A stretch of DNA of 64,000 bases from Sinorhizobium mexicanum (GTDB lineage Bacteria; Pseudomonadota; Alphaproteobacteria; Rhizobiales; Rhizobiaceae), in contig NZ_CP041239.1 of assembly GCF_013488225.1 (NCBI RefSeq), positions 1-64,000 on the forward strand, given 5' to 3'. A program made the position numbers and the translations under genes. The notes beneath the pieces were generated by a model that had not been told where the DNA came from, did no database searches, and worked only from the letters and a program-made list of their open reading frames with translations. This document shows positions 2,853 to 24,491 of the stretch, piece by piece. Position 1 is the stretch's first letter; every line of letters starts with the position of its first letter.

Positions 2853-3770
2853 TCAGGAGCGAACCAGCCCGAAGCGGCGCGCCTCCTCCAGTAGTGCCTG
2901 GACCGAAGACGGTTGCCATTTGCGGCCGCCACGTGGCGGTCGTTCATGCATCTGGTCCAATTGGGCGGCAATGTCGCGCAGCGACAGATCGGGATCGGCA
3001 ATGGCGATGCCGGCAACCAGACGCATCAGGTGATCCTCGGGCGGTCGGCGCGGCGATCGGGCAAGCAGCTCCGGTTCCGCGAGCTTTTCGCGCACCAGCC
3101 GGTGGACCGCCCGGCGCAACCGTTCGACGGTCCAGTCGTGCCCCCTGCGATTGAGGATGCGCACGACATTGTCCCAACTGTGTTGCGGGCGCAGTCGCCG
3201 TACAGTCGGCAGCCATGTCTGCGCCGACGAAATCAGCTCATCGAGGTAGGCGCGCTCGCGCGCCACTGAGACCGCACGGATTGCCTCCGGCCGGCGCTCT
3301 CGCAGCCCGGGGTTGCCGGCAAGCCGGCCGCGCGCCTTGGCAGCCTTCATCCCGGACTTCGTCCGTTCGGCGATCAGCGCGCGCTCGAGCTGGGCGACAG
3401 CGCCGAGCACCTGCAGGGAAAACATGCCTTGCGGCGTTGAGGTATCGATCGGATCGCGCAGCGAGCGGAAATGCACGCCGCGCTTCTCGAGGTCTTCGAT
3501 GACGTCCAGCAAGTGGCTGACCGAGCGGGCCAGGCGGTCGAGCCGGACGACGACGAGGACGTCGCCCGCGGTGAGATCCTTCAGCAGCTTCGCAAGCACC
3601 GGCCTTGCGCGTGATGCGCCGGATCCGTGCTCCTGGTGGATGCGGTGGCAGCCGGCCGCCCGCAATTCGTCGACCTGCGCGTCGTTGAGCTGATCGTCGG
3701 TGGAAACGCGGGCGTAGCCGATCAGCCTCTGCGGCAGGGGAGGGGGACTGAGGTTTGCAGCTCTCGTCAT
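2853..3770 (-). CDS. Serine recombinase (Tn3 resolvase/invertase family)
   Basis: This 305-aa protein has an N-terminal resolvase catalytic domain. GYARVST holds the nucleophile Ser23 and Arg21, and R-L-D-R-L-A-R-S at about residues 76-83 supplies the other conserved arginines. The linker and E helix follow. The C-terminal half, about 150 residues, is longer than the simple HTH of Tn3 resolvases and has two or more helical DNA-binding-like segments. The frame is open to 4262, but the sequence upstream of ATG 3770 is not conserved-looking, so that start was chosen. Serine recombinases cut and rejoin DNA at paired short sites. The gene is divergent from the RHE_PE00001-type gene across a 504-bp region, where its sites could lie. 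No transposase or terminal repeats were seen nearby. Confidence 0.85.
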   Translation of the reverse strand: MTRAANLSPPPLPQRLIGYARVSTDDQLNDAQVDELRAAGCHRIHQEHGSGASRARPVLAKLLKDLTAGDVLVVVRLDRLARSVSHLLDVIEDLEKRGVHFRSLRDPIDTSTPQGMFSLQVLGAVAQLERALIAERTKSGMKAAKARGRLAGNPGLRERRPEAIRAVSVARERAYLDELISSAQTWLPTVRRLRPQHSWDNVVRILNRRGHDWTVERLRRAVHRLVREKLAEPELLARSPRRPPEDHLMRLVAGIAIADPDLSLRDIAAQLDQMHERPPRGGRKWQPSSVQALLEEARRFGLVRS

Positions 3771-4274
3771 TGGATTTTTCCAGCCGTCTCGGGGGCGGGT
3801 TGTACAAACAAGAAATGTATCAGAAAAGGTTCCTTTGCAAGCGTGTTTTATGCTCCGAATGGAAGCCCGCCAGAATCGAAATGACGGTGCGGATGAGCCA
3901 CGGACCGCAAGCGGTCGCAAAACCGCGCCAGCGGGCTTCTGTGGGCGAAATGGCGCAAAATCAGCTGTTTCGAATGGGTCGGCTTCCCGGCCTGCCGTTT
4001 TGGATGGCCCAGGAGAGGGGAGAACCGTCTGGCGGCAGCTCGGCAGCCAGCCGCTGGCCCGAGGCTCCTCCACGCGATCGGGCCAAAGGGTCGGCTCAAA
4101 AGCCTGGATTTCCGGGGAATCCACCGTCCCGGCTGGCCGAGATAGCCGCGTCTGAGCCTCCATATCCATCCCTATCGATACTTGGGCCCTATCGATAGCG
4201 AGTACCCAACAACAAGCCATACCCGGTGAGGAACTATAACTTTGATATAGAGTTCTCTTCACAAATCATTTACC
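3771..4274. promoter_or_regulatory. Divergent intergenic region of recombinase and RHE_PE00001-type gene
   Basis: No gene is supported here. The region must hold both divergent promoters. Near the recombinase there is a TTGTACAA palindrome around 3800. Near the other gene there are two direct copies of CCCTATCGATA (4170-4197) and an imperfect inverted repeat with AACTATA/TATAGAGTT arms at about 4230-4252. Serine recombinases often act at sites immediately upstream of their own gene, so these repeats are candidates for a res-like or inversion site, or for operators. That role is inferred. Confidence 0.5.
4170..4197. repeat. Two direct CCCTATCGATA repeats
   Basis: The 11-bp word is present at 4170-4180 and 4187-4197, start to start 17 bp, and each copy contains the 8-bp palindrome TATCGATA. 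They lie about 80 bp upstream of the start of the 4275 gene. Both the spacing and the internal symmetry fit a DNA-binding site for a dimeric protein. Confidence 0.6.
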
Positions 4275-5414
4275 ATGATTTCAATGGTTTACGATCTCGC
4301 GAAACTGCCCATCCAGACCCTGCTGCGGCCGCTCTCCGACGCCGGCATCGCGCTCGCCCGTCTCGACGAACGCATTGCCCGTTCGGCGGTCGGCGAAGGC
4401 TTTCTCGAACGCATGCATTTCGCCGATGCCTGCGCCTCTCTGTGGATCGACGGCGAGCTCGTACACCTTGAAGACCTGGTGCTGCACGACGCCGGCCATG
4501 ACATCCGCACGCCGACGCACGAACTGACGATCGCCCGCGACGTGCTGCGCTCCCGCCGGCGCATCGCATCCCAGCCGCCGGGCTGGGCGCTGAGCCCCGA
4601 CGGTCTGCGCACCCTCCGGCAGGCGGGACCGGCTGTATCGCTTCGTGGCGACAGTCCAGTGGGTGTCGGAGCGACGGCGGACGCTGCTGCCGTCGAAGCA
4701 GGGGAGGGGGAGGACGCATCCGAGCAGGATTCCAGTCCGTTCGACGCCGAGCTGGCCGCGATCGATGCGCTGCTCGCCCGATCGGACGCGGCGATCGAAG
4801 CGGCGAAAGCGCCTGGCCGTGTCAGCAGGCGGGAAAAGGATCCGCTGGTCTACGATCTCGATTGGGACGAGGACGCGCGTCTCGAGGAATGGCGCGGCGT
4901 GCTCCAAAAAGTCGGCGATCTGCCGCCGGTGCTACAGGCGATCGTCGCCTTGGATGCCTGGAACGAGCTCGCGGTGTTGCAGCACGCGCCCTGGCTCGGC
5001 CGACTGCTGGCGGCGTCGTTGCTGCGCCAGGCCGGTGTCTCCACGGCGGCCCATCTCGCCGCCTTCAATCTTGGTCTGAAATCGATCCCCGTCGATCGGC
5101 GCCGACATCGCGATCGCGAGATCCGGCTGCTGGCGATCGCTCACGGCGTGACCGTGGTCGCCGAGATCGGACTGAAGGAACATGACCGGCTGGCGCTGGC
5201 GAGACAGATGATGGAGCGAAAACTCAACGGCCGGCGCACGTCATCGAAACTACCGGAGCTGATCGAGCTCGTTATGACAAAGCCGCTCGTCTCGGCCGGC
5301 ATGGTCGTGAAGACCCTTGAGGTCACGCCGCAGGCGGCGCGGCGGATTGTCGGCGAACTCGGCCTTCGCGAGATGACGGGGAGGGGGAGGTTTCGGGCGT
5401 GGGGCGTGATCTAG
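4275..5414 (+). CDS. RHE_PE00001/DUF1612-type helix-turn-helix protein
   Basis: This 379-aa protein resembles the RHE_PE00001 family found in rhizobia, often on plasmids. An N-terminal Fic/DOC-like helical segment ([31 protein letters not shown]) is followed by a variable acidic linker at about residues 130-190. A DUF1612-like middle domain comes next, then a C-terminal HTH in which [24 protein letters not shown] looks like a winged-helix recognition segment. No FIC active-site motif (HPFxxGNGR) is visible, so AMPylation is not expected. ATG 4275 is used, and ATG 4284 is a close alternative. It is divergent from the serine recombinase, an arrangement suggesting joint transfer or control. Its biochemical function is unknown to me. 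Confidence 0.75.
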
Positions 5415-5803
5415 TTGATTGAGAGAGGGCAGCGCCGCGCAGGCATTGGCTGTGACTTCAGCTTTGCCGATGGCTGCGGGGTTGATAGCCCTTTGCCAGC
5501 TTTCGCCGGGTGAGAATGAGAAAAAGATCGACTGCCTCCTCTTCTCGTTCAAAATGGTGGTTTATGCTTTGACCACGTTTTCCGATGCGTCCCCAAGAGC
5601 GGTTGAGGCAGGCTTCTCCAAACAATGTAGTCGTGACTTCCATGGCACAGAATCGTGCCATGTTCTTCGAGCTACCCAAGCGTTCGGCATAGAGATGGTA
5701 GTGTTGCGCGATCATGATGCCGACCTCTTTTTGAAGCTCTTGTTGAAGGGAAGCGGGCGCCGCGCCTACAGCGCACCGTTGGAGGCGCAGGCGACAGAGG
5801 ACC
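5415..5803. other. Convergent gap without a gene
   Basis: This lies between the ends of the rightward RHE_PE00001-type gene and the leftward defence operon. Two overlapping 125-132 aa frames on opposite strands show no domain or good start. No strong terminator hairpin was recognised, though both transcripts must end here. Confidence 0.5.
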
Positions 5804-6169
5804 TCAGTCTCGTTTGACACCCATCGGACGCCCATCCTTGCACCAATCGATACAACCCTGCTTGACCCAGAAATGGCACCCGCAGGCGTTCAACTGATGG
5901 ACAGATGGTTGCACGGTTGGCCGCCGCCAGAAGTCAGTAACAACCCCCCATCTCGGGCGCCGTGCGGGGTTGAGCGAAAGATTGATGATTTTGCCACAAC
6001 CGCCGGGGCAGGTGAAACATGCCCATTTCTCGATATCGCCGTCGCGGACGACGAACATTTTTCCATCTGGCAGAATTGCGTCGCCCGGGAGGGTCGAAGT
6101 GGACTCTACCAATAAATCAAATTTCAACAGGCCAAAGAACCTGAGGGCACGCGAGAGCAACGACCTCAT
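5804..6169 (-). CDS. DUF6527-type Cys-rich protein of a ubiquitin-like module
   Basis: This 121-aa protein carries a zinc-binding-like cysteine set: C51, C54 and C58 in WACFTCPGGCGK, then C96, C98, C106 and C110 in CGCHFWVKQGCIDWC. The family (DUF6527) is known as a small partner encoded beside bacterial E1/E2/JAB genes. ATG 6169 lies 2 nt after the stop of the JAB-E1 gene, so it is translationally linked as the last gene of the operon. The Cys array suggests a zinc ribbon that could bind a partner or nucleic acid. An E3-like or adaptor role is a guess from context only. Confidence 0.72.
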   Translation of the reverse strand: MRSLLSRALRFFGLLKFDLLVESTSTLPGDAILPDGKMFVVRDGDIEKWACFTCPGGCGKIINLSLNPARRPRWGVVTDFWRRPTVQPSVHQLNACGCHFWVKQGCIDWCKDGRPMGVKRD

Positions 6170-6171
6170 AA

Positions 6172-7569
6172 TTAGCTCACCATATCAAGGAAGGGCACGA
6201 CGTCGCCGGCACCACGAGACCAGTCGGAGTTGCAAACGGGACAACCATCGCGTTTTCTATGCGCCAAGAAGCGGTCGTCTCGGCTGTGCCACCGGCGCAC
6301 GCGATTGGAGATCATCCCCTCGCTCCCGTGAAAGCCGGTGATGGCCGCGATCATCTCATTCACTGCCACGGTCGCCATTTCGGTTGTGAATGTGACCACC
6401 GCCGGTGCGGGATCGCCACCGCCGATGACATAGGCTTCCTCCTTGCGCTTCTGGAATTCCTCCGGACGGGTGCGCTCAAGATCTTCCTCATGAGCCCGCG
6501 CGGCGTTGACGACACCGGAGCAGATCAAGCATGGACGGCCGGGCAATGCGGTTGTGACGCGCCCATTCAGATCATTAATTTGCCTCTCGTTGGCGGCAAC
6601 CATACGGAGACCCACATCGATCAGTGGGATACCGTAGAAGTAGGCCAGGCGGTTGATAAAGGTGCGACCCGAATTATCGTCCGTGCACCCGAAGATGAAA
6701 TCCGCCGACTTCAAGCCATCGCGAACTTCGGTCGACTTGACCCAAGCCTTGCTTGTGATCACATGGCAGCCGACGCCCATGGTTTCGATCTCGCGCTTGA
6801 GGATTTCGACCTTCGCCATGCCCACATCAGGCCGATGCGATCCATGCACGCGATTGAGATTGGTTTCGGCGAGCGTGTCGTTGTCGATCAGATAGATGTA
6901 GCCTACCCCAAGCCTAGCGAGCAGCAGGGCGACAGGGCTACCGGTGCCACCGCAGCCCACCACGCAAACGCGAAGCGAGCGGAGGGTCTTATTGAAGCCA
7001 GCACCGAAGAGCCGACGCTGGCGATCAAGGTGTTCCGCTTCGGCGCTTTCCGTTGCTTCAGCAGCATGCCGGATGAAGCGTCCACCGACGATCTGAACCG
7101 TATCTGCGACTATATAGGTGTTTGCAGCGGTCCAGATTCGGGCACTGACAGACCCATCGCCACCAAGAACGATGCTGACCAAGCCACGAACGCCCTTCAA
7201 ATGTGCCGTGCGGGCTAGTTCCTGTTCGTTCCGATCATCCTGATCCGAGAAAAAGGCGTAGCTTCCAGGGTGCGTATGAACAATCGCCGGCACTTTTCCA
7301 GCGATCATCGCGTCGCCAAGAAGACGCATGAAGCCAACGGTGCTCCAGGTCACGTGCACCGGCGAAGCGCTTATGTGGTCGGCAGCGGGAATATCGATAA
7401 CCCGATGGCTGACCAGACGAAGCCGCGGCTGCCTGGACCAGAGGTCGGCGCCGATATCAGAGGCACCAAGCAGCATATAGGCAGCCGCTTCCGGGGCGTC
7501 GCGCGCGGGAAACGGAGGACGGAGCAGTTCCATGTGCTGCTCCAGAATTGTGATGTCGAGCGCCGTCAT
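6172..7569 (-). CDS. JAB deubiquitinase-like + ThiF/E1 adenylyltransferase fusion
   Basis: This 465-aa two-domain protein has a JAB/MPN metalloprotease at residues 15-165: E27, then H98-x-H100-P...S108-x-x-D111, the complete zinc set. Residues 185-450 form a ThiF/MoeB/E1 adenylation domain: nucleotide loop VGCGGTGS (204-211), DNDTLAETNLNR (229-240) and CTDD (295-298). C347/C350 and C443/C446 form two CxxC pairs that probably hold structural zinc. Beyond these I see no obvious separate thioester cysteine. ATG 7569 was chosen because it follows the upstream stop by 1 nt, and the longer open frame to 7698 overlaps the E2 gene. E1s activate a ubiquitin-like C-terminus with ATP, while JAB proteins trim or remove it. 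The fusion puts both activities in one chain. Confidence 0.88.
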   Translation of the reverse strand: MTALDITILEQHMELLRPPFPARDAPEAAAYMLLGASDIGADLWSRQPRLRLVSHRVIDIPAADHISASPVHVTWSTVGFMRLLGDAMIAGKVPAIVHTHPGSYAFFSDQDDRNEQELARTAHLKGVRGLVSIVLGGDGSVSARIWTAANTYIVADTVQIVGGRFIRHAAEATESAEAEHLDRQRRLFGAGFNKTLRSLRVCVVGCGGTGSPVALLLARLGVGYIYLIDNDTLAETNLNRVHGSHRPDVGMAKVEILKREIETMGVGCHVITSKAWVKSTEVRDGLKSADFIFGCTDDNSGRTFINRLAYFYGIPLIDVGLRMVAANERQINDLNGRVTTALPGRPCLICSGVVNAARAHEEDLERTRPEEFQKRKEEAYVIGGGDPAPAVVTFTTEMATVAVNEMIAAITGFHGSEGMISNRVRRWHSRDDRFLAHRKRDGCPVCNSDWSRGAGDVVPFLDMVS

Positions 7570-7570
7570 C

Positions 7571-8437
7571 TTAGGCAGCCTTTGCAAATGCGAGTTCGGC
7601 ACGGGCGACCATGGTGCGGATGCCGTCGATACCCGCGCGCCAATCGGCATGGCGTGACCAACGCTGCCAGTTCTGGCCGGCAAACTGATGCGATACATCG
7701 GCGCAATTGGCGTAGCGCCCCGACGCCTTCAGCTTAATCCAAGGCATAGTGTAGAACATGTCGACACTGGCATCCGGATAGCCACAAGGGAGCTGAATCA
7801 TGATGTCGACGGTGTCGTGATCGAACTTGCCGGGAGGGAGCGGGAAGTTCTTGATCACAACCCCGCTCGCCTCTCCGTCGCCAACGATCTCATAGGCCAA
7901 ACCATTGTTCTCGAGAAACTGGCGATCGGTTGACGGAAGGGCGGCCAGCCCCTCCGTCGTTTCGCAGATGACGGTAATGAAGCGCTCAATACCCTTGCCG
8001 GACAGATCGACAAGATCCGTGTCGGCGATAGGACGGTCATGGCCGCCACGAACCTCAAGATAGATCGTGTAGCGCTCGTCGATGCCCGCAAGAGTGCGGA
8101 GCGCCTTGCCGCTGATCAGGTTCTTGCCCCAGGACATCTGGCGCTGCTCAATGGTAAAGTTGAAGGAGCGATCCGTCTCGAAGTAGGCGAATGCCTCTGT
8201 GCCCTTGCCGCGCAAGTCGAAGGTTTCGTCGAGGCGCACGTCCTCGAATTCGCCATTCAGCAAGATCGCGAAAAGGGAATAGTTCTCCACGTCGCGGATG
8301 CCTGCTGCGGCCAGGATCTGGCGCCCGACGGGGATCGGGTCTGCGACGGACGAGTTGTTGAAGTTCACGCCATCCGTGGTGAAGCGGACGCGGTATGCAG
8401 TGTTGGCGGTATCGGCCGCACGGTTCTCGATTGTCAT
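7571..8437 (-). CDS. Multiubiquitin (MUB) domains fused to prokaryotic E2-like domain
   Basis: This 288-aa protein appears to have two beta-grasp repeats of the bacterial multiubiquitin type at about residues 14-88 and 90-157. A prokaryotic E2/UBC-like domain (Prok-E2_E type) follows at about 165-285. The E2 part shows LPCGYP (216-221), DMFYT (226-230) and NCAD, where C245 sits where the catalytic cysteine of classical E2s would be expected (positional inference). The WQRWSRH and WRAGIDG motifs follow. No terminal Gly-Gly is visible on either repeat. ATG 8437 is used because 12 extra upstream codons look non-coding. The gene lies 86 nt after the helicase gene and 1 nt before JAB-E1, placing the ubiquitin-like protein, E2, E1 and protease in one transcript. 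Confidence 0.82.
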   Translation of the reverse strand: MTIENRAADTANTAYRVRFTTDGVNFNNSSVADPIPVGRQILAAAGIRDVENYSLFAILLNGEFEDVRLDETFDLRGKGTEAFAYFETDRSFNFTIEQRQMSWGKNLISGKALRTLAGIDERYTIYLEVRGGHDRPIADTDLVDLSGKGIERFITVICETTEGLAALPSTDRQFLENNGLAYEIVGDGEASGVVIKNFPLPPGKFDHDTVDIMIQLPCGYPDASVDMFYTMPWIKLKASGRYANCADVSHQFAGQNWQRWSRHADWRAGIDGIRTMVARAELAFAKAA

Positions 8438-8523
8438 AACTCTATTTCTCCATGGGCTTCTGCGGAACTGCATGCCCTACGAAGAGACAATCGGAGCGAC
8501 CGGAGCGAACCGGTAAGGGGTCC

Positions 8524-11500
8524 TCAAATTTTTTTTACGAGTGTGCCTGGTGGCAACGGACCGCAGATGAAAAAGGCTGGGCATCGGGGGCAAGTGCGGC
8601 TACTGCGATCTGGCGGAAGGTCGCCAGTCATGATCGCCGAGATGACATCGTCAACGGCTACCCGCCGCGCATTGAACTTCTTTGCATCGATCTCGATTGG
8701 TGTCGGTTCTTCTTCCGCGAGGTGCACGATCTGGACGAGCGCACCAGGGAACGAATTGCGTGCCCCGAAGAACATCGAGGTTGAAGCTGCGTCCGTAAGG
8801 GACGATTTGGTTGCGTGGCCCGTCCGTATGCGCCGAACCAGTTTTCGGCCAGAAGCATCTACAAGTATATCGTCCACGCGAATCTGAACCCTGGCCGCGC
8901 CCGAAGCAAGGCTTAGGTCGGGATGCGTGAGCTTTGTCATACCGGCGCGACTGTCGAGGAGTTTCTTGATGAGGGACCGAGCAATCGCTCGATATTCATC
9001 TGCGTATCCATTCTCACTGACGGCGGTTTCCTCAAGTGCTGACACAAGACGGCGATCGACCTCTGCCGCGTCGACAAGCTCAGGCGATCTTAAAACCACC
9101 CAGTCCACAACCATCTGGACGGCGTCATGCATCTTCATGAAGGTCGTTTCCACCCTCGTCCCGCCTACCCCAAGCAGGTGCGAATAGTAGAAGCGCCGGG
9201 GACAGCTGTCATGGGTTCCGAGCCGGGTGTCCTCGATGGTAACCGGACCCTCGAATACAACTTCCACGTGACTCTCATCCTCAGCCACCAATTCCAACGC
9301 CGGATCCACGCGACATTGAACCAAGGGTGGGACAATCCTGTCGATGTACTCGGAGTGGCCCCATTTCCGACCACCCTTCTGCATGGTGGGCGTGTAGATC
9401 GTCAGGCAGTCTCGTGCTCGCGACATCGCCACATAAAATAAGCATTCCTGCTCATCGAGATGCGCCTGTGTTCGGACTTCCCTGCCAGTTCCGACAAGAC
9501 CTCGCACCAAGCCGTCGGGCGTTTCGATACCTTGGAACAGATTGGGCGAGCGTGGCAGGCTTCCCGTGTTCACCCCTGGGAAGTGTATTGCCCGGAACTC
9601 TAGTCCCTTGGAGCCGTGGATAGTCATCAAACGGACGGCGTTGAGACCCTGAGCTGAGGAAGGGAGTTGTCTTAGGTCACGCTCATCGGCAAGGCGGACC
9701 AATCGGCGGATACGGTCGAGCAACCGCCCGATCGGCGATCCTTGGCCCGGAGCTGGGTTTCGAACGAAGTTCATCAGCTGCCATATCGCGATGCCTTTGG
9801 CGCGCGCTGAGATGGCGGAGTTCGACGCCAGATCTGCAGCAATTCTAGTGCGGTCGAGTAGCAAGGTAGCCAGCACGTCCCACGGATACGAGTCCGCGCT
9901 AAACCCCTCCATCGCGCGGCTCAAGGCGTTGAGCGCGGATCGACCCGCAAGCGTGAGTTCTGGGAATCGGTCAGGGTTTCCCATCCACGCAGGAGCAGGT
10001 CGAGTGTCGGCTGCGAGCCGCTGTACGATGTGTGCGGCATCCCCGATGCTCATTTGGAACTGTGGCATCGCCGCGGACCTCACGATGCCCATCGCGCGTC
10101 CATCCACCAGTATAGATAGGAGTGATAGCAGGTCCTTGATCTCAGGACGTTCAAAGATGCTGCCCAGATGTAGAACCGGAATGCCCAGGCTTTCGAGCGC
10201 GGCGCCGAACTTGGCCAATTTGTCGTTCCCGGTGCAAAGGATTGCTTGGTCCCGATACTCAATGCCTTCCGCTCGGAAAGCCTCGATGGCCTCCGCGACC
10301 GCCTCAATCTCGTCCGCTGCAAAATCGACTTGTCGGTGTTCGGGCTTGCGGCCACACGCGCCCCGATAGGCTTCTAGTCCGGAGTCCTTACCTTTGGCGA
10401 CATTCATCGTCTCAGCGAACCTCGAGAACGTTTTCACGATCTCGTCGGTCGAACGGTAATTGATTGAAAGCCGGCCGTCTTTGGTCCCAGGGAAATCGCT
10501 GGCGAAATTGGTCAGGTTGACGGATGAAGCGCCCCTGAAACGGTAGATGGACTGTTTCGCATCGCCGACAGCCCAAAGATGCTGCCCTGACGGCCGAAGC
10601 TTCTTGAGCAAGGTGACGCTGCTGCGATTGACGTCTTGGTACTCGTCGACCAAAACGTGAGCATAGCGTTCCGATAGCTCGTTTCGAACATCTTCGTGCT
10701 CGGTCAAGAGCTTGACCGGCAATGTGACGAGGTCGCCGAAATCGAGGCGCTGCAGCGCGCCTTTGATTTCCTCATACCGTCGATACACCCGCGCTACTTC
10801 GATCTGCTTCTCCGCCGCGATTTTTGCATCATTATCACCTGTTCTTTCCGCGGCTTCGGCCATCGCGATCGCCAGACCTTCGAATTCCGTTGGCGAGGCT
10901 AACTCGTCCTTCGCCCGAGATATGGCTGATAAAATCCTGTCGAGATTTTCGGTGGGGTCCCAGAGGTTTTTGTAGTGCTGAAGGCCGAGCTTAGGGGCCT
11001 CAACCTCGAGCAGGCCAATAGCATCGGCGCGGTCGATCATTTTTGGATCGTCGGGGATTCCAAGACGGTCGTGAAACCGTCGAACCAAGTCCAGACCGAA
11101 AGAATGGAACGTCCCGATCCACATTGCCGCCGCGGCCTCGGCATCGACAGCGGCGATCCGATCGAACAATTCGCCTGCGGCTTTATTAGAGAACGTGAGG
11201 ACAAGAATGCTGCGTGGATCAACGCTCTTGGACAGTAGCCACTTGATGCGGCCAACCAAGGTCTGGGTCTTGCCCGTACCCGGGCCTGCTTCGAGCAAGT
11301 AGGGTTCGCCCCAATGTTCCGCGGCGGACCTCTGCTTCTCGTTCAGGGCGCGCTCTTCAGTCGGCTTGCGCTCTTCCGCCACGACGGTGGGCAGGAGAAG
11401 CGCGTCGAGCAACTGCTGGATTATCGAAGATCGAGGAGCGCCAATCCTTTCGGCGATCTGGGCGGACGTCATTGAGCCGTCGACATGCAGTGACTTGGCC

Positions 11501-11934
11501 GTAGCGCGGGGCAGAAGAAGTTCGCGCGCGAATAGGTCCATTTGAACCTCGCGGCGTTGCCGACGGCTATAATCTTCCACCCGCTCGGCCCCAACCGGCG
11601 GCATTTCGGATGGCCGAGCAGTATCGATCTCGCCCGCTTCATAGCGCCGGGTCCTGTCGCCCAGCTCCACATGTCCCACTTCATGGGCCACGAGGAAGGC
11701 ATCCTCGAAATCCGATCCGGTCGCCTCGTGCATGATCATGGGCAGGTCTGGATCGAAGATGGCCCTTGCGCCGTTGAGCATCGGGCTGCCCTTCTCGACC
11801 CGCTGAACTTCTACGCCGGCCCTTTCGGCAGCCGTGACAGCCAGTTGATAGGGTTTCGAGACATCGGCGCCTCTGGCGATCAGCTCTGCGTTGATTTCTG
11901 CAGCACGTTGGCGGCCGATCTCGATCGCGTCCAT
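8524..11934 (-). CDS. ImmA/IrrE peptidase - UvrD helicase - Fe-S PD-(D/E)XK nuclease fusion
   Basis: This 1136-aa fusion has three parts. Residues 1-190 are an ImmA/IrrE-type zinc peptidase with H84-E85-V-G-H88. Residues 195-880 are a superfamily-1A UvrD/PcrA-like helicase: Walker A AGPGTGKT at 216-223, DEYQD at 430-434, then DAKQSIYRFRG, MTIHGSKGLEF and YVAMSRARD. The C-terminal part has one early Cys (DSCPRRFYY) and C1115, C1118 and C1124 as CxxCx5C, the four-cysteine Fe-S pattern of AddB/Cas4-type nucleases. ATG 11934 directly follows the upstream TGA by 1 nt, and an in-frame TTG at 11949 is less likely. ImmA-type peptidases cleave repressors in mobile elements (family knowledge). Here it may sense or release the operon's regulators, which is inference. 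Confidence 0.88.
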   Translation of the reverse strand: MDAIEIGRQRAAEINAELIARGADVSKPYQLAVTAAERAGVEVQRVEKGSPMLNGARAIFDPDLPMIMHEATGSDFEDAFLVAHEVGHVELGDRTRRYEAGEIDTARPSEMPPVGAERVEDYSRRQRREVQMDLFARELLLPRATAKSLHVDGSMTSAQIAERIGAPRSSIIQQLLDALLLPTVVAEERKPTEERALNEKQRSAAEHWGEPYLLEAGPGTGKTQTLVGRIKWLLSKSVDPRSILVLTFSNKAAGELFDRIAAVDAEAAAAMWIGTFHSFGLDLVRRFHDRLGIPDDPKMIDRADAIGLLEVEAPKLGLQHYKNLWDPTENLDRILSAISRAKDELASPTEFEGLAIAMAEAAERTGDNDAKIAAEKQIEVARVYRRYEEIKGALQRLDFGDLVTLPVKLLTEHEDVRNELSERYAHVLVDEYQDVNRSSVTLLKKLRPSGQHLWAVGDAKQSIYRFRGASSVNLTNFASDFPGTKDGRLSINYRSTDEIVKTFSRFAETMNVAKGKDSGLEAYRGACGRKPEHRQVDFAADEIEAVAEAIEAFRAEGIEYRDQAILCTGNDKLAKFGAALESLGIPVLHLGSIFERPEIKDLLSLLSILVDGRAMGIVRSAAMPQFQMSIGDAAHIVQRLAADTRPAPAWMGNPDRFPELTLAGRSALNALSRAMEGFSADSYPWDVLATLLLDRTRIAADLASNSAISARAKGIAIWQLMNFVRNPAPGQGSPIGRLLDRIRRLVRLADERDLRQLPSSAQGLNAVRLMTIHGSKGLEFRAIHFPGVNTGSLPRSPNLFQGIETPDGLVRGLVGTGREVRTQAHLDEQECLFYVAMSRARDCLTIYTPTMQKGGRKWGHSEYIDRIVPPLVQCRVDPALELVAEDESHVEVVFEGPVTIEDTRLGTHDSCPRRFYYSHLLGVGGTRVETTFMKMHDAVQMVVDWVVLRSPELVDAAEVDRRLVSALEETAVSENGYADEYRAIARSLIKKLLDSRAGMTKLTHPDLSLASGAARVQIRVDDILVDASGRKLVRRIRTGHATKSSLTDAASTSMFFGARNSFPGALVQIVHLAEEEPTPIEIDAKKFNARRVAVDDVISAIMTGDLPPDRSSRTCPRCPAFFICGPLPPGTLVKKI

Positions 11935-11935
11935 G

Positions 11936-12484
11936 TCACGCCTCGTCAACCAGCTCGGCGATTTCTTCCGGCGTGTGGCCGCATTGCGCCAAAACCGATG
12001 CCAGTTCCATTTGAGAGGTTACGTTCGGTTTTGTGTCGGCCTTATAGCTTGCGCCGGCTGCAAGAACGCGCGGAGCGTTGAGGTAGGAAGTCAGCTCTTC
12101 GATGCCGGTGCCCAATGCTTGGGCCAAGCGAGCGAGGAATCGCTTGGGAATGGACGCGAAAATCACCGCTCGATCGCGTAGTTGCATGATGACGGCCGTC
12201 TTCACACCTATCGTAGTCGCCACGTCCTTGGTGAAGCGCTTGGCGGACAGCGGTTCACCCGTAATCTGCGAAAATCTCGACCACGATGCCGCGACGACAG
12301 GGGAGTCGAGGTCAAGCGGTATCTCGCTCGCGTCGTCGAAGTCGAGCTCCAGCAATAAGTTCAAGAGATCTGACCGAAGGTCTGGATAGGTAGTTAGATA
12401 TCGATCCAGGGTCTCTTTGTCGTGGTTCGGCTCGACCGCGAATGCGGCGAGAATGTTTTCAATGTCATTTGGATGCCGGTTCAT
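11936..12484 (-). CDS. Small HTH-like protein paired with sigma-like factor
   Basis: This 182-aa acidic protein of an unnamed family is ATGA-overlapped with the sigma-like gene before it and followed after 1 nt by the ImmA-helicase gene. Residues about 85-135 (KRFTKDVATTIGVKTAVIM, then a helix rich in R and A and IPKRFLARLAQALG) look like a helix-turn-helix. The N-terminal 60 residues are helical and Leu/Asp-rich. Position and size suggest an anti-sigma or co-regulator, possibly the target of the neighbouring ImmA-type peptidase, since such peptidases are normally encoded next to the repressor they cut. That link is inference. ATG 12484 was chosen, and the 25 upstream codons of the open frame lie inside the sigma-like gene. 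Confidence 0.65.
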   Translation of the reverse strand: MNRHPNDIENILAAFAVEPNHDKETLDRYLTTYPDLRSDLLNLLLELDFDDASEIPLDLDSPVVAASWSRFSQITGEPLSAKRFTKDVATTIGVKTAVIMQLRDRAVIFASIPKRFLARLAQALGTGIEELTSYLNAPRVLAAGASYKADTKPNVTSQMELASVLAQCGHTPEEIAELVDEA

Positions 12485-13275
12485 TCTAAATCCTCCATAG
12501 CCTTCCGGAGCTTGCCAATAGCTCTCTTCCTGCGGTTGCGGACCGTTTGGTCGTTGCATCCGAGGAGGCCGGATATCGTGATGACTTCGGGGTCGCTCGA
12601 GGCATCGTTGTAGCCCTTGAGGGAGAGCAGAATAACTTCACGTTCTTCTGCGGGTAGCTTGTTGATCGCAACACCGAGCGCGGACCGGTAAGCCGGATCG
12701 TCAATTTTTTCGGACTTAAATGGATCGTATGATCCGGCAGCCTTCTCGACTTCGGGCGAAATCGTTTCGTCGTCGTCGTAGGACAATGGCTGATTTCGTT
12801 TTTCTTCCAGATCGGCCTTTGCGCGCGCTGTCAGACGCAACGCCTTTATGGCCGCTGCAAAATTCACCTCAAAATAATCCAGCGCAGCTAGATAGCCGTT
12901 ACGGTCCTCGATCAATTTGACCTCGAAAGCAAAGACTACCGCTTCGATAATCTTTTCAGCGCGGGAGCTGACGGCCTGCTTTTCACCTACATAGTGATAC
13001 GCCCCCGGCGTCGCAGCGGCCCGCTCGATCCTGGCAATCAATGCCTTGTACATAAGTTCGAACGGGACACTAGAATTGTCCCGCTTCGATTTACGGACGA
13101 AGTGCAGGAGGCATTCCGAAGGCAGGAAGTCAGGATGCCCCGGGGATGAGATTCGCATACGTTCGATCAAGTCGTCTCGAGGTATCCTCTCGAGGTATTC
13201 GATCAACGACTCGATTTCTGGCCTGCGACGATACGGCTTGCCATCAGGATAAGTCTGTCTTAGCGGCTCGACCAA
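12481..13275 (-). CDS. Sigma-70/ECF-like regulatory protein
   Basis: This 264-aa protein has a C-terminal sigma region-4-like domain. LPAEEREVILLSLKGYND is followed by a helix-turn-helix GCNDQTVRNRRKRAIGKLRK at about residues 235-258. The N-terminal part has SECLLHFVRKSKR and MYKALIARIERAA, resembling a divergent region 2. It begins with TTG 13275 behind a GGGGGA ribosome-binding site, and no better ATG exists upstream. As first gene of the six-gene operon it probably controls that operon or a target set. It overlaps the next gene by ATGA. Sigma-like factors are unusual as first genes of defence operons. Whether it binds RNA polymerase core cannot be told from sequence. Confidence 0.72.
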   Translation of the reverse strand: MVEPLRQTYPDGKPYRRRPEIESLIEYLERIPRDDLIERMRISSPGHPDFLPSECLLHFVRKSKRDNSSVPFELMYKALIARIERAAATPGAYHYVGEKQAVSSRAEKIIEAVVFAFEVKLIEDRNGYLAALDYFEVNFAAAIKALRLTARAKADLEEKRNQPLSYDDDETISPEVEKAAGSYDPFKSEKIDDPAYRSALGVAINKLPAEEREVILLSLKGYNDASSDPEVITISGLLGCNDQTVRNRRKRAIGKLRKAMEDLE

Positions 13276-13732: not shown

Positions 13733-16700
13733 TCAAGGCCTCAGAGCCCAGGCCACAGTCGGCGTAGGCACGCGATCTAGCACGGCGTCATATACGCGGT
13801 CACTTACACGATATGCCTTCCGAACGGCGCCTTCCAAGGCGCTTTCAACTTCCACAATTCGGTGCCATCGTGTGTCGACTGCACTTTTGGCCTTGCGATA
13901 GGCAGATCGAACGAAAGCGATCTGGGTGGGGGTAAGAGGACCGAAGAGTTCAGTTGCCTTGCGGCTGAACTCCGTCTCCGAAATCGCCCAAAATTTCTCG
14001 ACTCTCGTCAGCTTCGCCTCGGGTGTTGCTGCCGCAAAATCGGCGTTAGCTTCTCTCAGTGCCTGCCGCAGAGCCTCCCACTCACCTTGAAGTGCGACAG
14101 CGGCGTCGCCGATGGCAGCTGACGAAGCTCTGCTCATCCGCGGCACGGGAATACTAGCCAGATCCAGTTTGCTGACCTTCGGGAATTTGTCTCCAAACAA
14201 ACGGTTCGTGAAACGCTCGTAGGTGGCTGAAACGAAGCGACTATTGAGTAGTCCCAGCAGCGTTCGGAGCGGGACGCCCCGTGCGTTGTAGATTGCGAAG
14301 AGGGTGTTTAGATACAGAACTGGATCTGTCGGCGTCTGAAGGCACGCTGACATTCCCTGCCAGAATATCTGCTGAACGAGGATGCGCGGTCGAGCATAGT
14401 GATCCAGTTCGCGCTTATCTCGAAGCAGATCAGAGTACTGCAGCCACTGGGTCGTGCTTGGCTCAATGAAATATCTCTGAACGTCGTTGGCGTCGACATA
14501 GGGATACCAGTCACTGCCCTCACGCGTAGGACTGTGGAAACCGCGATTCTGGATGAACTCCCTCGGCACCTTCGTGTGGTGATAGACCTGAATGCCAACG
14601 GTCACGTCAGCGACCGCGTCAAGTCGCATGCAACGGCCCGCAATTTGGTCCAATTCGTCCGCAATGCGTGATGGATAGATTACTTCGAAGCGATGGTTGG
14701 GCTGTTTTGCCTGAAAGCCTTGCGTTGTATCATGCGCTATAAACCAGTCGCGCTCCGCAAGCTGCTTGAGCTTTGCAGTCTCGGAACGGCCGCGCGAAAG
14801 GGCAGCTATCTGCATTGTGCTCAATCCCACAGCATCCACGCTGGCGAGCGGCTCGCGGCGCTTCTTAGCAACGAGCAGCATGGCATCGTGATTTACGTCC
14901 CTGAAGATCTTCCACGTATTGGTGATCTCCAGCAACTCGAAGTGCCGCAGGAGCCAAGCCCGAAACGAGCCATAGCCATCTACAGTTAGCCAGGAGTTTG
15001 GGAGTACGAAGGCCAACATTCCCTCCGGCCGGAGCATTTCCCAGGTCCTGATGACGAATAGAGCATAGGAATCCCGCTCTTCTCCGCTGAAAGGAAAACG
15101 CTCATCTATTTCACGTGCTGACCACCCATCGAGTTCAGCTCCCCATGGTGGATTCCCGATCACAACGTCGTAGGCTTCGTCATCGCCGCTGCGAAGCGAG
15201 TCACCGACAGTGATAGAGCTGTCAAGTGTCTCTAGCTTTTCGCCCCGGCGTGCAGTCCGCAGCCAAATGCTTAGCCGGGAAATCTCCACCGACTCAGGCA
15301 GCAGATCCCGGCCATACAGGTTCTGGCGGAGGATCAGTCTATCCAAATCAAGCAACGATCTCTGCCGTCGCGACCCTTGCAATTCTGCCAGTGCACGGTT
15401 TGTCTTTTCGTGCTCATCATGCAACTGGGCCAAAGCCTCCACCAGGAAAGCCCCAGACCCACAAGCCGGGTCCATCACTTTCAACGAGCCGAGCCGATCG
15501 GCATAGTTGGTAAGGAGCACCATCTGCCGGCGACGAGCCGCACCGCGCCCTGCGCCAATTTTCGGATGGCCCGTGGCGGCAGTCTCGGCTTCCTCAAGCA
15601 AACGCTCAAATACTCGCCGCAGAGCGCGTTCAACCAAGTACGAGGTGACCTCCTGGGGCGTATAATAGACTCCGCCGACCTGCTGACTGGTGACCTCGAT
15701 CTCGCCGATTCCGCGAACGCGCGCCGGCCCGTTGCTTATGTCTTTCAGGCTCTGTTCGAATATGGCTCCTAGGGCTTGTTCATCCAGGTCTTCTGCGAAA
15801 TCGTAAACGTCGAATCCGAATACCCCCACGATCTCCAAGCTCTGCCGTCGTCCGCGCCCTACTCGGAATCTCTTCTCAAACAGGGCGTTTGGAATTTGGA
15901 CCGCATCGAAATAGGCGTCGTGCGCAAACAGACCGCCATTGAAAGCATTGAGCGCCACACCATCTACACCCCCGCCGATGTTCAATGCGGAGAACAGATC
16001 GCGGTACTCGCGCCAGTAGGCACCCTCCCGGCCATCAGCGCGAGCTCTTTGCACTACCTGGCGTAGTGTATTTCTCGGTACTAGCTCCGCGGGATGATCC
16101 TCGCAAAATGCGACAAAGAGGACTCGGTTCAAGAGCTTGTGAGTCTTCCCGTACAGCTGACTAGAGGTCATTCCCGCCGATGCCGGCTGCGCACTTAGGC
16201 ATGCTATCAGTTCATTTTGGACGGCCTTGTAGAGACCGTAGAATCCTTCTGTAAGTTCCCGACCTGCCGAGATTGATTCTCGAAACGCGCGGCTGGCCAC
16301 GGGTTCGCGGCCACGACCAAGCAGCCCCTCGGGCCTAAGCAACACGTAAAACTCAAAGAGGCGCTCTCGGTCGCGAAGGTCGTTCAAAGCCCAAGAGTGA
16401 TAAGCTCCGGTGTAGCCATTCTTATAGAGGCGCACTTCACGCAGATTGGTAACGAGAACCCATTCTATGCCGGGTTTCTGCGTCGCGTAACGAAACCCCT
16501 GCTCAACCGGGGTTTCTCGATTGGCTCTTCCCACCTGCGGCTGATCCAGATCGGTCTTGGCGTCTTTAATCTCTCCGACTGCGCCCCACTCCTCCACCCC
16601 CGCGGTAAGGTCAAATCGACCGAGGACGAAATCAGGGGTATGTCGGCCGCTCGAACGCTTCGGCATGAGCGAAGCTTCAACCGTTCGGCCGATCTGCTCG

Positions 16701-16909
16701 TAACCTAAGACTGTACCAAGGATCTCGCTGTTGAAGGTCTGCTCGGCGGAACTCTCCGTTAGCTTATTGAGAACGCCCCTTTCAAGCTGGCCAATCCAGT
16801 GATTCACCGCGGTGATGGCAGCGGCTGGCAGCGAAAGACCACGCTCGCTTTCGCCGCGCAAAACGTTACGAAGCACCCTCGAATTGAACAGTGACTGGAC
16901 CTTGGACAT
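13733..16909 (-). CDS. Eco57I-type fused restriction endonuclease / N6-adenine methylase
   Basis: This 1058-aa protein combines modification and cleavage. The N-terminus has a PD-(D/E)XK nuclease: P92-D93, then E113-I-K115. An N6-adenine methyltransferase core follows, with SAM motif DPACGSG at 480-486 and catalytic NPPW at 586-589. The C-terminal third has TaqI/BREX-PglX-like target-recognition character (HHTKVPREFIQNRGF, LLGLLNSRF). Length and order fit type IIG enzymes of the Eco57I family, with no separate S or R subunit nearby. ATG 16909 has AGGGG upstream. It is flanked by the WYL regulator and the ubiquitin-like operon, all leftward but with 300-460 bp gaps, so it is probably its own unit. 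Its recognition sequence cannot be read from the protein. Confidence 0.9.
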   Translation of the reverse strand: MSKVQSLFNSRVLRNVLRGESERGLSLPAAAITAVNHWIGQLERGVLNKLTESSAEQTFNSEILGTVLGYEQIGRTVEASLMPKRSSGRHTPDFVLGRFDLTAGVEEWGAVGEIKDAKTDLDQPQVGRANRETPVEQGFRYATQKPGIEWVLVTNLREVRLYKNGYTGAYHSWALNDLRDRERLFEFYVLLRPEGLLGRGREPVASRAFRESISAGRELTEGFYGLYKAVQNELIACLSAQPASAGMTSSQLYGKTHKLLNRVLFVAFCEDHPAELVPRNTLRQVVQRARADGREGAYWREYRDLFSALNIGGGVDGVALNAFNGGLFAHDAYFDAVQIPNALFEKRFRVGRGRRQSLEIVGVFGFDVYDFAEDLDEQALGAIFEQSLKDISNGPARVRGIGEIEVTSQQVGGVYYTPQEVTSYLVERALRRVFERLLEEAETAATGHPKIGAGRGAARRRQMVLLTNYADRLGSLKVMDPACGSGAFLVEALAQLHDEHEKTNRALAELQGSRRQRSLLDLDRLILRQNLYGRDLLPESVEISRLSIWLRTARRGEKLETLDSSITVGDSLRSGDDEAYDVVIGNPPWGAELDGWSAREIDERFPFSGEERDSYALFVIRTWEMLRPEGMLAFVLPNSWLTVDGYGSFRAWLLRHFELLEITNTWKIFRDVNHDAMLLVAKKRREPLASVDAVGLSTMQIAALSRGRSETAKLKQLAERDWFIAHDTTQGFQAKQPNHRFEVIYPSRIADELDQIAGRCMRLDAVADVTVGIQVYHHTKVPREFIQNRGFHSPTREGSDWYPYVDANDVQRYFIEPSTTQWLQYSDLLRDKRELDHYARPRILVQQIFWQGMSACLQTPTDPVLYLNTLFAIYNARGVPLRTLLGLLNSRFVSATYERFTNRLFGDKFPKVSKLDLASIPVPRMSRASSAAIGDAAVALQGEWEALRQALREANADFAAATPEAKLTRVEKFWAISETEFSRKATELFGPLTPTQIAFVRSAYRKAKSAVDTRWHRIVEVESALEGAVRKAYRVSDRVYDAVLDRVPTPTVAWALRP

Positions 16910-17209: not shown

Positions 17210-18127
17210 CTATTGTCCATCTAGCGAGTTGTCTTCTCGTGCGTTTCGCACGAGCTCCTTTGTCCGCTCCTTAGCCTCTTGGAGCTGCTCCATTACTGTT
17301 TCGGAATTCTCAAGCTCGAGCTGCAACCGCCCGGGCGAAAGCTCTTTCGACGCCGAAAGGTCCAGGTTCATGCGGCGAATAAAGTAGAACGCAAGAGAGG
17401 CTCTCATTTCGAGATCGAGGTGACCGTCGACCATTCCGTAGTCAAGTTGTATCGTCTTGCTCTGCTGCGGCGAGAGGCCGCGGTGCGGCCTAAGTCGAAG
17501 CATAATTTTTGTAGCCCACTCGATGTCGTGATCGGGATCGAATTGTACCGGCTTTGTGTCTCCGATCTCGTCGATGCGTGAGAGCACGAAATCGCGGAAG
17601 TCCTCCTTATCGCAGCACCAGGCACGAACGTGCCACCGATGACCGTCAAACGCGAGAGCATGAGGCGCGATCGCACGCCGACGCGCGCCTGTAAGCGCAT
17701 GATAGCGGATATCGAGCGCCACGCGTTCCCGCATTGCCATCAGCAGTTTCCGCAAGCACTCAGTTGAGACGCTTCGGGCGATGTCCGGCGCGACCTCAAC
17801 CGGGGGCACCTCCCTGAACCACAGGTCGGATTTCGGGATGACACCCGAGAGCGCTGCCCGCAATTGCAGGAGCAGCCGGTCGGCAGAGGGAATCAGGAAG
17901 CGCGGCTTGAACACTGCCGACGGCTTGTAGCCTCTCGCGGTTGGTTTCAGATTCCCGGGAGCGATCTCCCTATAATTCCTAAGATCAACCGAGGCTTGCG
18001 GCGTGGAAATGCCGAATGTCGATTCCAGGTCGCTTCTGATCACCCGGTTCTCCCAGAACATCTTCCATTCGACGAGCTCAAAGCGTCGTTGCTGGGTCCA
18101 GGTGCGTCGATCATCGGTTTCGGACAT
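17210..18127 (-). CDS. WYL-domain transcriptional regulator (BrxR/CapW-like)
   Basis: This 305-aa protein has an N-terminal winged-helix segment (residues 10-60, with FGISTPQASVDLRNYRE as recognition helix) and a central WYL domain at about 140-230 (IRYHALTG, HALAFDGHRWHVRAWC, FRDFVLSRI). A C-terminal WCX-like extension follows. WYL regulators such as BrxR and CapW bind palindromes upstream of defence operons and repress them until a signal is sensed (family knowledge). The gene diverges from the AddB/AddA-McrBC cluster. The perfect inverted repeat at 18161-18176 lies between them, so autorepression and control of the cluster are the natural reading. ATG 18127 begins MSETDD. Confidence 0.88.
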   Translation of the reverse strand: MSETDDRRTWTQQRRFELVEWKMFWENRVIRSDLESTFGISTPQASVDLRNYREIAPGNLKPTARGYKPSAVFKPRFLIPSADRLLLQLRAALSGVIPKSDLWFREVPPVEVAPDIARSVSTECLRKLLMAMRERVALDIRYHALTGARRRAIAPHALAFDGHRWHVRAWCCDKEDFRDFVLSRIDEIGDTKPVQFDPDHDIEWATKIMLRLRPHRGLSPQQSKTIQLDYGMVDGHLDLEMRASLAFYFIRRMNLDLSASKELSPGRLQLELENSETVMEQLQEAKERTKELVRNAREDNSLDGQ

Positions 18128-18499: not shown

Positions 18500-18657
18500 G
18501 GATAGTTCGGATTTGGCGCGGCAAGGCGTTTGGTGCCAGCGCCGCGCCAGGTTCGTCGCTCACTCTCCAACATGATTGATCCTCCGCGGTCGACGAATTG
18601 TTTGTTTACGGCTTGAGTGGGGGTGGCGCTATTCAAGCGCAAGCAGGGGCTAAAAAC

Positions 18658-24300: not shown

Positions 24301-24491
24301 CTGCAATTATAGATCATAAGAGCTTCCCTGGACGGATGGAGCAGTGGGAGGGGCTCGCTCTCCACCACGCTCCTCAGCTTGGGCTTTATGGCGAAGCCGT
24401 CGCTATGGTGTCGGGGCGATCGTGCGAGGAGCTTTGGATTCACATGCCTGTCGTCGGTGCTCTGCTGCGGGTGGCGCGCGTGACGGAATGA
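21342..24491 (+). CDS. AddA-like UvrD helicase-nuclease
   Basis: This 1049-aa superfamily-1A helicase has Walker A AAGAGKT at 10-16, DEFQD at 342-346, VGDPKQAIYGFRGAD, MTYHGAKGLEWP and LLYVGVTRARD. A C-terminal RecB-type nuclease follows, with GRIDLL and IIDHKSF as the D...D-x-K pair. Order and size match AddA. With the preceding AddB-like gene it would make a two-motor-like helicase-nuclease that degrades DNA ends. The start is ATG 21342, overlapping the upstream TGA by one base. The frame is open 54 nt further upstream, but that part lies in the AddB-like gene. A 131-nt gap with a possible promoter separates it from mcrB. Confidence 0.88.
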   Translation: MRRLNTITAAAGAGKTTRIVADIAREVTIRSPEEILATTFTIKAADELVERARAKLFDGGNTDAAVRLLGASFGTVNAVCGQIVSDFAMDLGRSPSTSVIGEGNEALVFSVAADAAIAARASVLNPLAERFGYNDPRRPDSGEPPDWRRTVRAIVNLARANGLDATGLLASAELSVETYRALQPPPAVDGAALDTAIAAALAAVMAARPAKLSKTAEGHLPTIRAAHERALRGETLNWPIWAKLTKVACARTKDGPAYAEALDDLIAAAGRHVDHPRLRAETEQFARETFSCAAEALTSYQHWKAERGLLDFTDQEALALEVLKDPIRVGRLRERVGRVFVDEFQDSSPLQLAVFSALAEVAEESTWVGDPKQAIYGFRGADTELTQAAFTGAGVTAEPQDVLAKSWRSRPGVIELSNALFTPAFERMGLPAAQHAFSGAERSDLGFDQPPIAWWPLLGKVEEQAQALAEGIRDCLADASQWMVEGLRREHRPLRSGDVAVLCRTNIDVARFARALSRAGLPVAVERSGLARTPHVELVLAACRWLADATDRLALAELARFFGDDAVSNDWLIAAAAEDSVAALRARVPVADELERLRERVLNLTPAELVDSVLALPAMMAQIEQWGDPAIRFDDLEALRGFATAYENECASSGAPATLHGLLLSLEGADPKRPPSLAKDAIQVMTYHGAKGLEWPMTVLTGLAWEPRARVFEPVAEVNGELDWRAPLERRWIRFWPWPYGQSGKDSALEVAAFASEHGQGAWRRAVQEDIRLLYVGVTRARDYLVFAPPAKGALNWLRLLDDPDGAPHVVPPPADDNLLTVGGRTFVAHVRPLAADEAPEERYAQPSFVRPRSAPAERPPLYLRPSDAEGGDWRVVERVNLGGRLPIDGVADMAALGEALHAIIAYDDGSRETAQRLADADAMLTSWGVKGFAAVDALTACDRLSVWLRNRWPNGSMLPEAPMTARFGDQLVQGRIDLLVNLEDSSAIIDHKSFPGRMEQWEGLALHHAPQLGLYGEAVAMVSGRSCEELWIHMPVVGALLRVARVTE

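Follow-up and report, generated by a model that had tools for sequence, protein, structure and literature searches.

A predicted sigma factor/ImmA-helicase chassis ahead of a ubiquitin-like conjugation module in Sinorhizobium mexicanum

Results

Six adjacent genes in the window

The window analyzed here is a stretch of 64,000 nucleotides (nt) from Sinorhizobium mexicanum (NZ_CP041239.1, positions 1 to 64,000), and our subject is a predicted operon of six open reading frames at 5804-13275, all on the minus strand. In order the genes encode a sigma-like protein, a small helix-turn-helix (HTH)-like protein, a fusion of an ImmA-type protease with a UvrD helicase and a nuclease-like domain, a fusion of tandem ubiquitin-like (Ubl) domains with an E2, a JAB-E1 fusion and a DUF6527 protein (Table 1). 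We refer to the first three as the chassis and to the last three as the tagging module. Frames and junction sequences, re-read in the window, agree with the six genes and the spacing described in an earlier note on this DNA. Two points in that note are corrected here: polyUbl and E2 are fused in the fourth gene, and catalytic residues are missing from the PDDEXK domain. The arrangement is more than chance, because the gene order recurs in 80 relatives and in nine further helicase-positive genomes.

Table 1 Features of the operon and its surroundings in the window
Feature	Position	Strand	Remarks
Extracytoplasmic function (ECF)-like sigma factor gene, 264 amino acids (aa)	12481-13275	-	TTG start; region 4 clear, region 2 plausible
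HTH-like small helical protein, 182 aa	11936-12484	-	XRE-like HTH at 78-139; 4-nt ATGA overlap with sigma gene
ImmA (M78) protease-UvrD helicase-Fe-S PDDEXK pseudonuclease	8524-11934	-	ATG at 11934; 1-nt gap after HTH gene
polyUbl-E2 fusion (BubA-BubB-like)	7571-8437	-	ATG at 8437; 86-nt gap (8438-8523) before it
JAB-E1 (ThiF) fusion (BubCD-like)	6172-7569	-	ATG at 7569; 1-nt gap before it
DUF6527 protein (protein Y of 6e)	5804-6169	-	2-nt gap before it; PF20137 76.2 bits
P1, second copy of promoter-like element, within sigma gene	12664-12691	-	TTACCGGT-N15-CGATC, one mismatch
P2, promoter-like element in 86-nt gap	8489-8516	-	TTACCGGT-N15-CGATT; -35 8516-8509, -10 8493-8489
Leader hairpin, 3' arm carrying Shine-Dalgarno GGAG (8451-8448)	8447-8485	-	predicted fold
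Serine resolvase	2853-3752	-	just downstream of operon
DUF1612/HTH_13 protein	4275-5414	+	just downstream of operon
Type IIG restriction-modification gene	13733-16909	-	
WYL protein	17210-18127	-	
Second AddAB-like pair	18598-24491	+	
McrBC	24623-28401	+	
chrB-a RNA	45024-45104	-	81.1 bits

The sigma-like protein matches Sigma70_r4_2 (PF08281) in Pfam at 27.8 bits against a cut-off of 25.7, identifying region 4. For region 2 Pfam gave no match and whole-chain structure alignments gave a root mean square deviation of about 15-19; the protein also scores under the curated cut-off of NCBIfam TIGR02937 (30 bits vs 42.9). No Pfam family was found for the HTH-like protein. It bears a conserved flexible YKADxKP segment and is a probable repressor or anti-sigma factor and a candidate substrate of the ImmA protease.

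Matches place the tagging module among known bacterial systems. The polyUbl-E2 protein contains two Multi_ubiq stretches (PF14452, 1.8e-32) and Prok-E2_E (PF14462, 7.9e-44), with PDB matches to a multi-ubiquitin protein (9d5b, 2.7e-23) and Citrobacter BubB (9eae, 3.7e-12). The JAB-E1 protein combines Prok-JAB (PF14464) with ThiF (PF00899) and matches Citrobacter BubCD (9ea4, 2.3e-31); in the alignment to BubCD, the Asp altered in the PDB D104A entry is retained. C54, C58, S89, C96 and H99 of the DUF6527 protein are identical in 49/49 aligned sequences. Because its best PDB matches are multi-ubiquitin proteins, Citrobacter BubB and Citrobacter BubCD, we assign the module to the Bub/6e type, whose features it displays: tandem Ubl, an E2 fold (here fused), a JAB fused to the E1 and the metal-binding protein Y/DUF6527. 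Conjugation of the Ubl to proteins is predicted.

The ImmA-UvrD protein carries a degenerate nuclease domain

A 21-sequence helicase alignment was searched in one genome per species and gave 278 relatives, the best 80 of which were analyzed (46-59% identity; L011, L050 and L078 only partly covered). Dereplication at 90% helicase identity reduces these to 57. They come from Pseudomonadota, Planctomycetota, Acidobacteriota, Verrucomicrobiota and Myxococcota; an archaeal metagenome-assembled genome among them (L030) may be contamination.

Pfam divides the window protein into Peptidase_M78, UvrD-helicase, UvrD_C and PDDEXK_1 domains, the last at 22.7 bits against a cut-off of 22. The ImmA HExxH motif is kept in 79/79 covered relatives, the Walker A motif in 80/80 and the four-Cys signature of the PDDEXK domain in 78/78 covered, while H941 and D1026 are retained in 80/80 and 79/80. 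The recognizable domain with its cysteines, His and Asp would favor the last step of the model in the earlier note, where DNA is cleaved by an effector nuclease-helicase under regulation by ubiquitin-like tagging. Motif III (D/E-x-K), however, is lost in all 80 relatives: position 1040 is never acidic and position 1042 is K in 6. Judged from this loss, an active PD-(D/E)XK nuclease appears ruled out, the nuclease activity in the earlier note is not borne out and a DNA-cleaving effector is very improbable.

A 1764-aa homologue (P0022) was considered as a gene fusion of helicase and tagging functions and rejected: Pfam recognizes no domains in it beyond those for helicase, M78 and nuclease, its C-terminal part being present in repeat, and the other matches are low-scoring and all under cut-off. 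A scan of IMG/VR found 28 relatives, all partial, with 23-45% identity and the earliest start at residue 190. As none of them includes the ImmA part, a phage-borne system was rejected.

The chassis is accompanied by ubiquitin-like modules

Profiles built from the window together with a small number of loci detected the sigma gene in 78/78 and the HTH gene in 79/79 relatives whose contig reaches that far; front genes are missing where contigs start too late (sigma and HTH in L011, sigma in L078). The contigs of L050 and L078 stop within the helicase, leaving 78 loci for downstream counts, and in 77 of these a Ub-like conjugation gene set lies immediately 3' of the helicase gene. The sole relative with the chassis and the junction element described below that has no Ub-like genes is L032 (13418-15067), with SbcDC-like genes directly 3'. 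A few contigs, that of L080 included, stop inside the module.

Several kinds of module occupy this position. Besides the polyUbl-E2 fusion, JAB-E1 and DUF6527 set of the window, we found polyUbl, separate E2, JAB-E1 and DUF6527; polyUbl or a single Ubl with DUF6791-ThiF and DUF6527, which is the commonest kind; and a metallo-beta-lactamase (MBL)-like gene with E2_A-ThiF-JAB (L079 by Pfam; L069 and L081 by profile). Two modules are single cases (L017 and L087), with JAB matches, and in L087 also ThiF, below the Pfam cut-offs. The polyUbl of L087 (13391-14257) has an RGG end like eukaryotic ubiquitin; the commonest modules differ. In L013 a second Ub-like set (WYL, Ubl, E2, JAB-E1 and DUF6527-like; 3952-8461) lies directly upstream of the chassis.

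Two less selected samples gave the same picture. In a set of 150 genomes, made up of the window's own and its relatives, the helicase (threshold E 1e-150) occurs in 5 and Multi_ubiq in 17, and all 5 are within the 17; in a set of 398 genomes from the phylum, which likewise includes that of the window, the helicase occurs in 6 (at least 907 bits, all other matches at most 224 bits) and Multi_ubiq in 15 (13 above cut-off), and all 6 are within the 15. The probability of such co-occurrence by chance is 1e-5 and 9e-10, respectively. Nine helicase loci besides the window, two of which duplicate loci among the 80 (L015 and L018), keep the order sigma-HTH-helicase-Ubl-E1 in 9/9 and have DUF6527 too in 8/9. 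Overall, 10/10 helicase-positive genomes of the two samples carry a Ub-like module, whereas 21/31 Multi_ubiq-positive genomes lack the helicase chassis. The helicase family is therefore a dedicated partner of Ub-like modules, which also occur without it.

The earlier note had treated the two trios as one system, an idea at odds with finding them almost always apart in relatives. Seen from the helicase side they are together, which supports it; the link is only partial when one starts from the Ubl genes (5/17 and 6/15). The Ubl-positive genomes without helicase are what one would expect if two units stood side by side by chance, but given the 77/78 relatives, the 10/10 sampled genomes and the conserved order in 9/9 further loci, independent neighbors were rejected as extremely improbable.

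A promoter-like element recurs at the junction and inside the sigma gene

Between the helicase stop and the next start codon lies a gap with a median of 81 nt (range 16-507; 74/76 loci measured), with varied modules behind it. The gap begins with TTACCGGT, 15 nt and CGATT (P2 in the window). Allowing at most two mismatches and a spacer of 13-17, the element is found at the junction in 77/78 loci, exactly in 50, with one mismatch in 24 and with two in 3, compared with 118/4000 random 220-nt windows of the same loci. The spacer is 15 in 76/77 loci and 14 in one.

A second copy, P1, lies about 4.2 kb upstream of P2 and codes for the conserved YRSxLxAAI of sigma region 4. We compared codons in 105 columns with a conserved amino acid across 56 relatives, taking the expectation from the helicase codon use of the same locus. 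The six columns of strongest codon bias all fall within the P1 stretch: Arg AGG in 33/47 (4.0 expected), Ile ATT in 46/54 (12.2), Arg CGG in 48/54 (13.6), Ala GCG in 54/55 (20.2), Pro CCA in 27/52 (8.2) and Gln CAA in 33/45 (12.8). Protein conservation does not account for this copy. Behind P1 the sigma genes of many relatives (e.g. L016:9211-9290) keep CAA and, ahead of an ATG or TTG, the rare codon AGG; this may be a ribosome site within the gene that yields a region-4-only product. The AGG codon of this putative internal translation start, strongly constrained in relatives, is not present in the window's sigma gene.

The two sites stand out in wider scans. With a matrix built from 56 junction sites only, sites above 95% of background windows were obtained in the sigma gene in 51/52 loci and at the junction likewise in 51/52. 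When both strands of the 80 loci (1.61 Mb) were scanned more strictly, with one mismatch allowed and the spacer fixed at 15, there were 73 junction sites, 64 sigma-gene sites and 6 others, against 4 for the reversed motif. Of these 6, the one in L050 corresponds to the sigma-gene site on a contig that is cut short; those of L057, its near copy L086 and L060 precede the sigma gene. In the 7.14-Mb genome of the window the exact element occurs once only, as P2; four more sites, one of them P1, appear at one mismatch (reversed-pattern control 4). Fifty whole genomes of relatives contain 58 exact matches vs 2 in the control. Judged by contig and position, 51 of the 58 fall on the two canonical sites, 2 are neighbors of the operon and 5 are found elsewhere. 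One of the two neighboring copies (L049:15960-15988, plus strand; 1/28 positions off that locus's own P2) lies about 75 nt ahead of the likely start, the start codon being a chosen one, of a SAVED/HNH gene, behind which stands a gene for a DncV-like nucleotidyltransferase, a set resembling the cyclic oligonucleotide-based anti-phage signalling system (CBASS), so the sigma factor may drive this operon too. The other (L087:8370, minus strand) sits on the opposite strand, some 380 nt ahead of an AbiEi/AbiEii pair. Checked at up to one mismatch, nine helicase-positive genomes include G333, without the sigma-gene site, and G016, G060 and G479, with several other copies.

Generic sigma-70 promoters and terminators in the window are at chance level (5 vs 3.7 and 11 vs 10.3), and no minus-strand terminator-like site was listed in the gap at 8438-8523. 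A terminator or promoter there had been named in the earlier note as a possible divide between the trios. A promoter-like element is indeed present, but since its other copies lie in the sigma gene and seldom anywhere else, the shared sequence probably ties the two halves together. We infer that the operon's own sigma factor uses it as a promoter.

The same element could be the operator of the XRE-like HTH protein, which would repress both halves until cleaved by ImmA in the manner of CapH/CapP, with the sigma-like protein otherwise employed. The XRE-like fold, the constant adjacency of the HTH and ImmA genes and a palindrome, ACCGGT, within the element are consistent with this. Conversely, the two blocks of the element are asymmetric, their spacing is fixed, the -10 box lies 43-58 nt ahead of the start codon in 47/49 loci measured with a leader between, and the sigma gene is present at every covered locus, all of which makes the operator fairly unlikely.

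The leader of read-through RNA is predicted to mask the ribosome site

Only L040 (33 nt) and L079 (29 nt) depart from this leader length. Folded singly, 48 leaders have a mean z of -2.9 relative to dinucleotide shuffles, with 44 below -1 and the window at -2.4. In 38/44 leaders with a recognizable Shine-Dalgarno sequence it is mostly paired, and its mean unpaired probability is 0.26 vs 0.47 when the preceding stretch is shuffled (lower in 36/44, p 6e-7). If the RNA starts 7 nt past the -10 box, the mean rises to 0.46 and 19/44 sites become more than half open, 14 of which are closed in read-through RNA; in the window the value goes from 0.001 in read-through RNA to 0.55. ECF-type transcription starts 5-8 nt after the -10. 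The 5' end of the masking arm is thus close to the expected position of an ECF-type start. Single-sequence folding thus predicts a leader that hides the ribosome site in read-through RNA.

Modules are exchanged behind a constant chassis

On the helicase tree (FastTree, 56 rows) the module types need 14 changes, where the least possible is 7 and the shuffled mean 22.2. A particularly direct comparison is that of L067 and L079, which share by blastn a single similar stretch of 82.9% DNA identity. In L067 coordinates it runs from 8639, where the first 22 nt of the sigma gene have passed, to 13450, which is 11 nt beyond the -10 box of P2; after that, polyUbl/E2/JAB-E1 follow in one of the two loci and MBL with E2-E1-JAB in L079. 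The promoter-like element goes with the chassis, and leader and module differ. By these comparisons a fixed chassis of ECF-like sigma factor, XRE-like protein and ImmA-UvrD-pseudonuclease heads interchangeable Ub-like modules. Same-strand genes downstream of the helicase include SbcD- and SbcC-like genes in 12/80 loci and AddB-like genes in 7/80, both uncontrolled counts; representatives are Metallophos, AAA_27 and PDDEXK_1 proteins.

Discussion

Proposed mechanism

The comparisons suggest a self-contained response to DNA damage or infection that switches on ubiquitin-like tagging, a reading to which we give a probability of roughly 0.55. The helicase would travel along DNA that is damaged or invading, the Fe-S pseudonuclease serving to bind DNA, and would thereby activate the ImmA protease to cleave the XRE-like protein. 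The freed sigma factor would fire P1, giving more sensor and inhibitor from the HTH and helicase genes, and P2, giving the tagging genes. RNA started at P2 would lack the arm that hides the ribosome site and be translated, unlike read-through RNA, and the Bub-type E1/E2/JAB/DUF6527 set would then tag proteins, perhaps at DNA ends. That the peptidase frees the sigma factor, as the earlier note also proposed, is a plausible hypothesis. We infer the roles of the HTH protein (ImmA substrate or anti-sigma), the DNA trigger, P2-dependent translation and tagging for defense or repair. CapP and PprI are precedents of ImmA-type proteases that sense single-stranded DNA (PMC13373217 and PMC10904395, respectively).

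Several observations weigh against this reading. The match of the HTH-like protein to the XRE fold is weak and generic. L085 has no junction element with up to two mismatches and a spacer of 13-17; among the nine genomes checked at up to one mismatch, G398 has neither site and G479 no P2. Upstream of the sigma gene itself a matrix site was found in only 9/52 loci (2.6 expected), and an alignment of 7 rhizobial regions there gave no clear element, so a conserved promoter at that place was rejected. Nor is the element private to the system, with 26 exact matches in 25 of the 398 phylum genomes vs 10 in the control. The converse co-occurrence is partial, as noted above. For the leader, only 19/44 ribosome sites are over half open with a start 7 nt after CGATT, and RNAalifold on MAFFT leader alignments found no common pairs, so that a model derived from them captured sequence alone.

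The chassis might instead do nothing but regulate: it would be an oversized CapP that responds, with its partners, to DNA damage, and the tagging modules would be immune cargo of the ordinary sort that has no functional interaction with the helicase. According to PMC13373217, CapW and CapH+CapP govern many unrelated immune operons and 219/544 Bub operons carry one or the other; the copies of the element ahead of the CBASS-like genes in L049 and the AbiE genes in L087 fit as well. Yet the cargo behind the chassis is so uniformly a Ub-like module, and a processive helicase with an Fe-S domain seems so superfluous for a regulator, that we find this explanation rather doubtful.

Extending the proposed damage response, one may tentatively picture a mobile, self-contained bacterial counterpart of the eukaryotic DNA-damage ubiquitin response, a possibility we hold with some reserve. 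Here a protease-helicase would free a sigma factor firing essentially only its own P1 and P2 (now and then a neighboring CBASS or AbiE), only P2-started RNA would be translatable, and cassettes, often followed by SbcDC- or AddAB-like genes, would be swapped at the promoter behind a constant sensor. If the tagging response is real, bacterial ubiquitin-like conjugation gains DNA as its probable trigger, a transcription switch of its own and a partner protein that stays constant, and P1 and P2 make the circuit testable by a simple reporter. The swapping of different tagging modules behind one chassis argues that what the DNA sensor requires is tagging in itself, and the SbcDC-like or AddB-like genes after the module in 19/80 loci (an uncontrolled count) hint at a parallel to ubiquitin signalling at DNA ends.

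Genomic neighborhood and mobility

The type IIG restriction-modification, WYL, AddAB-like and McrBC genes beside the operon form a DNA-defense island (Table 1). An anti-phage role is suggested by context only, namely the type IIG, McrBC and WYL genes in the window; for Bub operons, phage protection 'has not been demonstrated' according to a 2026 paper (PMC13373217). The helicase family occurs on 90 PLSDB plasmid records, 45 of them from Acinetobacter. In one plasmid copy (L187; G016:C3:178000-197500) a single TGA interrupts the helicase gene and the other five genes are open.

Comparison with known systems

Like AddB/RecB-type PDDEXK helicase-nucleases, the chassis protein joins a UvrD helicase to a C-terminal Cys4 PDDEXK domain, but it lacks catalytic motif III and has an N-terminal ImmA domain. 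In leader control of the T4 gene e type, read-through RNA hides the ribosome site and RNA from an internal promoter exposes it; here the setting is a host operon with its own sigma factor, and leader control is a prediction only. Modules of the 6A-MBL and CBASS Cap2/Cap3 type (E2-E1-JAB) correspond to the E2_A-ThiF-JAB genes with an MBL-like neighbor that stand behind the same chassis in L079 and, by profile, L069 and L081; the window's module is not of this type.

Regulatory parallels exist as well. PprI (IrrE)-DdrO of Deinococcus (PMC10904395) also pairs an M78-family protease with an XRE repressor and uses DNA as the signal, but its protease is single-domain and the pair is not known to include a sigma factor or tagging genes. 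CapH+CapP and CapW offer an HTH protein beside an ImmA-type peptidase ahead of an immune or Ub-like operon (PMC13373217). They differ in that here the peptidase is fused to a UvrD helicase and an Fe-S pseudonuclease instead of forming a stand-alone two-gene regulator, with an extra sigma factor and two internal promoter-like elements.

The nearest relatives are the Bub/6e operons, with polyUbl (also fused to E2), JAB-E1 or another domain fused to E1, and a metal-binding protein. Row 6e of Iyer et al. 2006 (PMC1779556) lists the trio that forms the tagging module, including the fused polyUbl-E2 form, and the main text of that article contains neither 'helicase' nor 'sigma factor'. The literature searched, with the main Bub papers outside that search, yielded no description of this gene set and element; the Bub literature may contain an earlier mention of a helicase neighbor. 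Unlike the Bub/6e operons, the one in the window starts with genes for a sigma factor, an XRE-like protein and an ImmA-UvrD protein.

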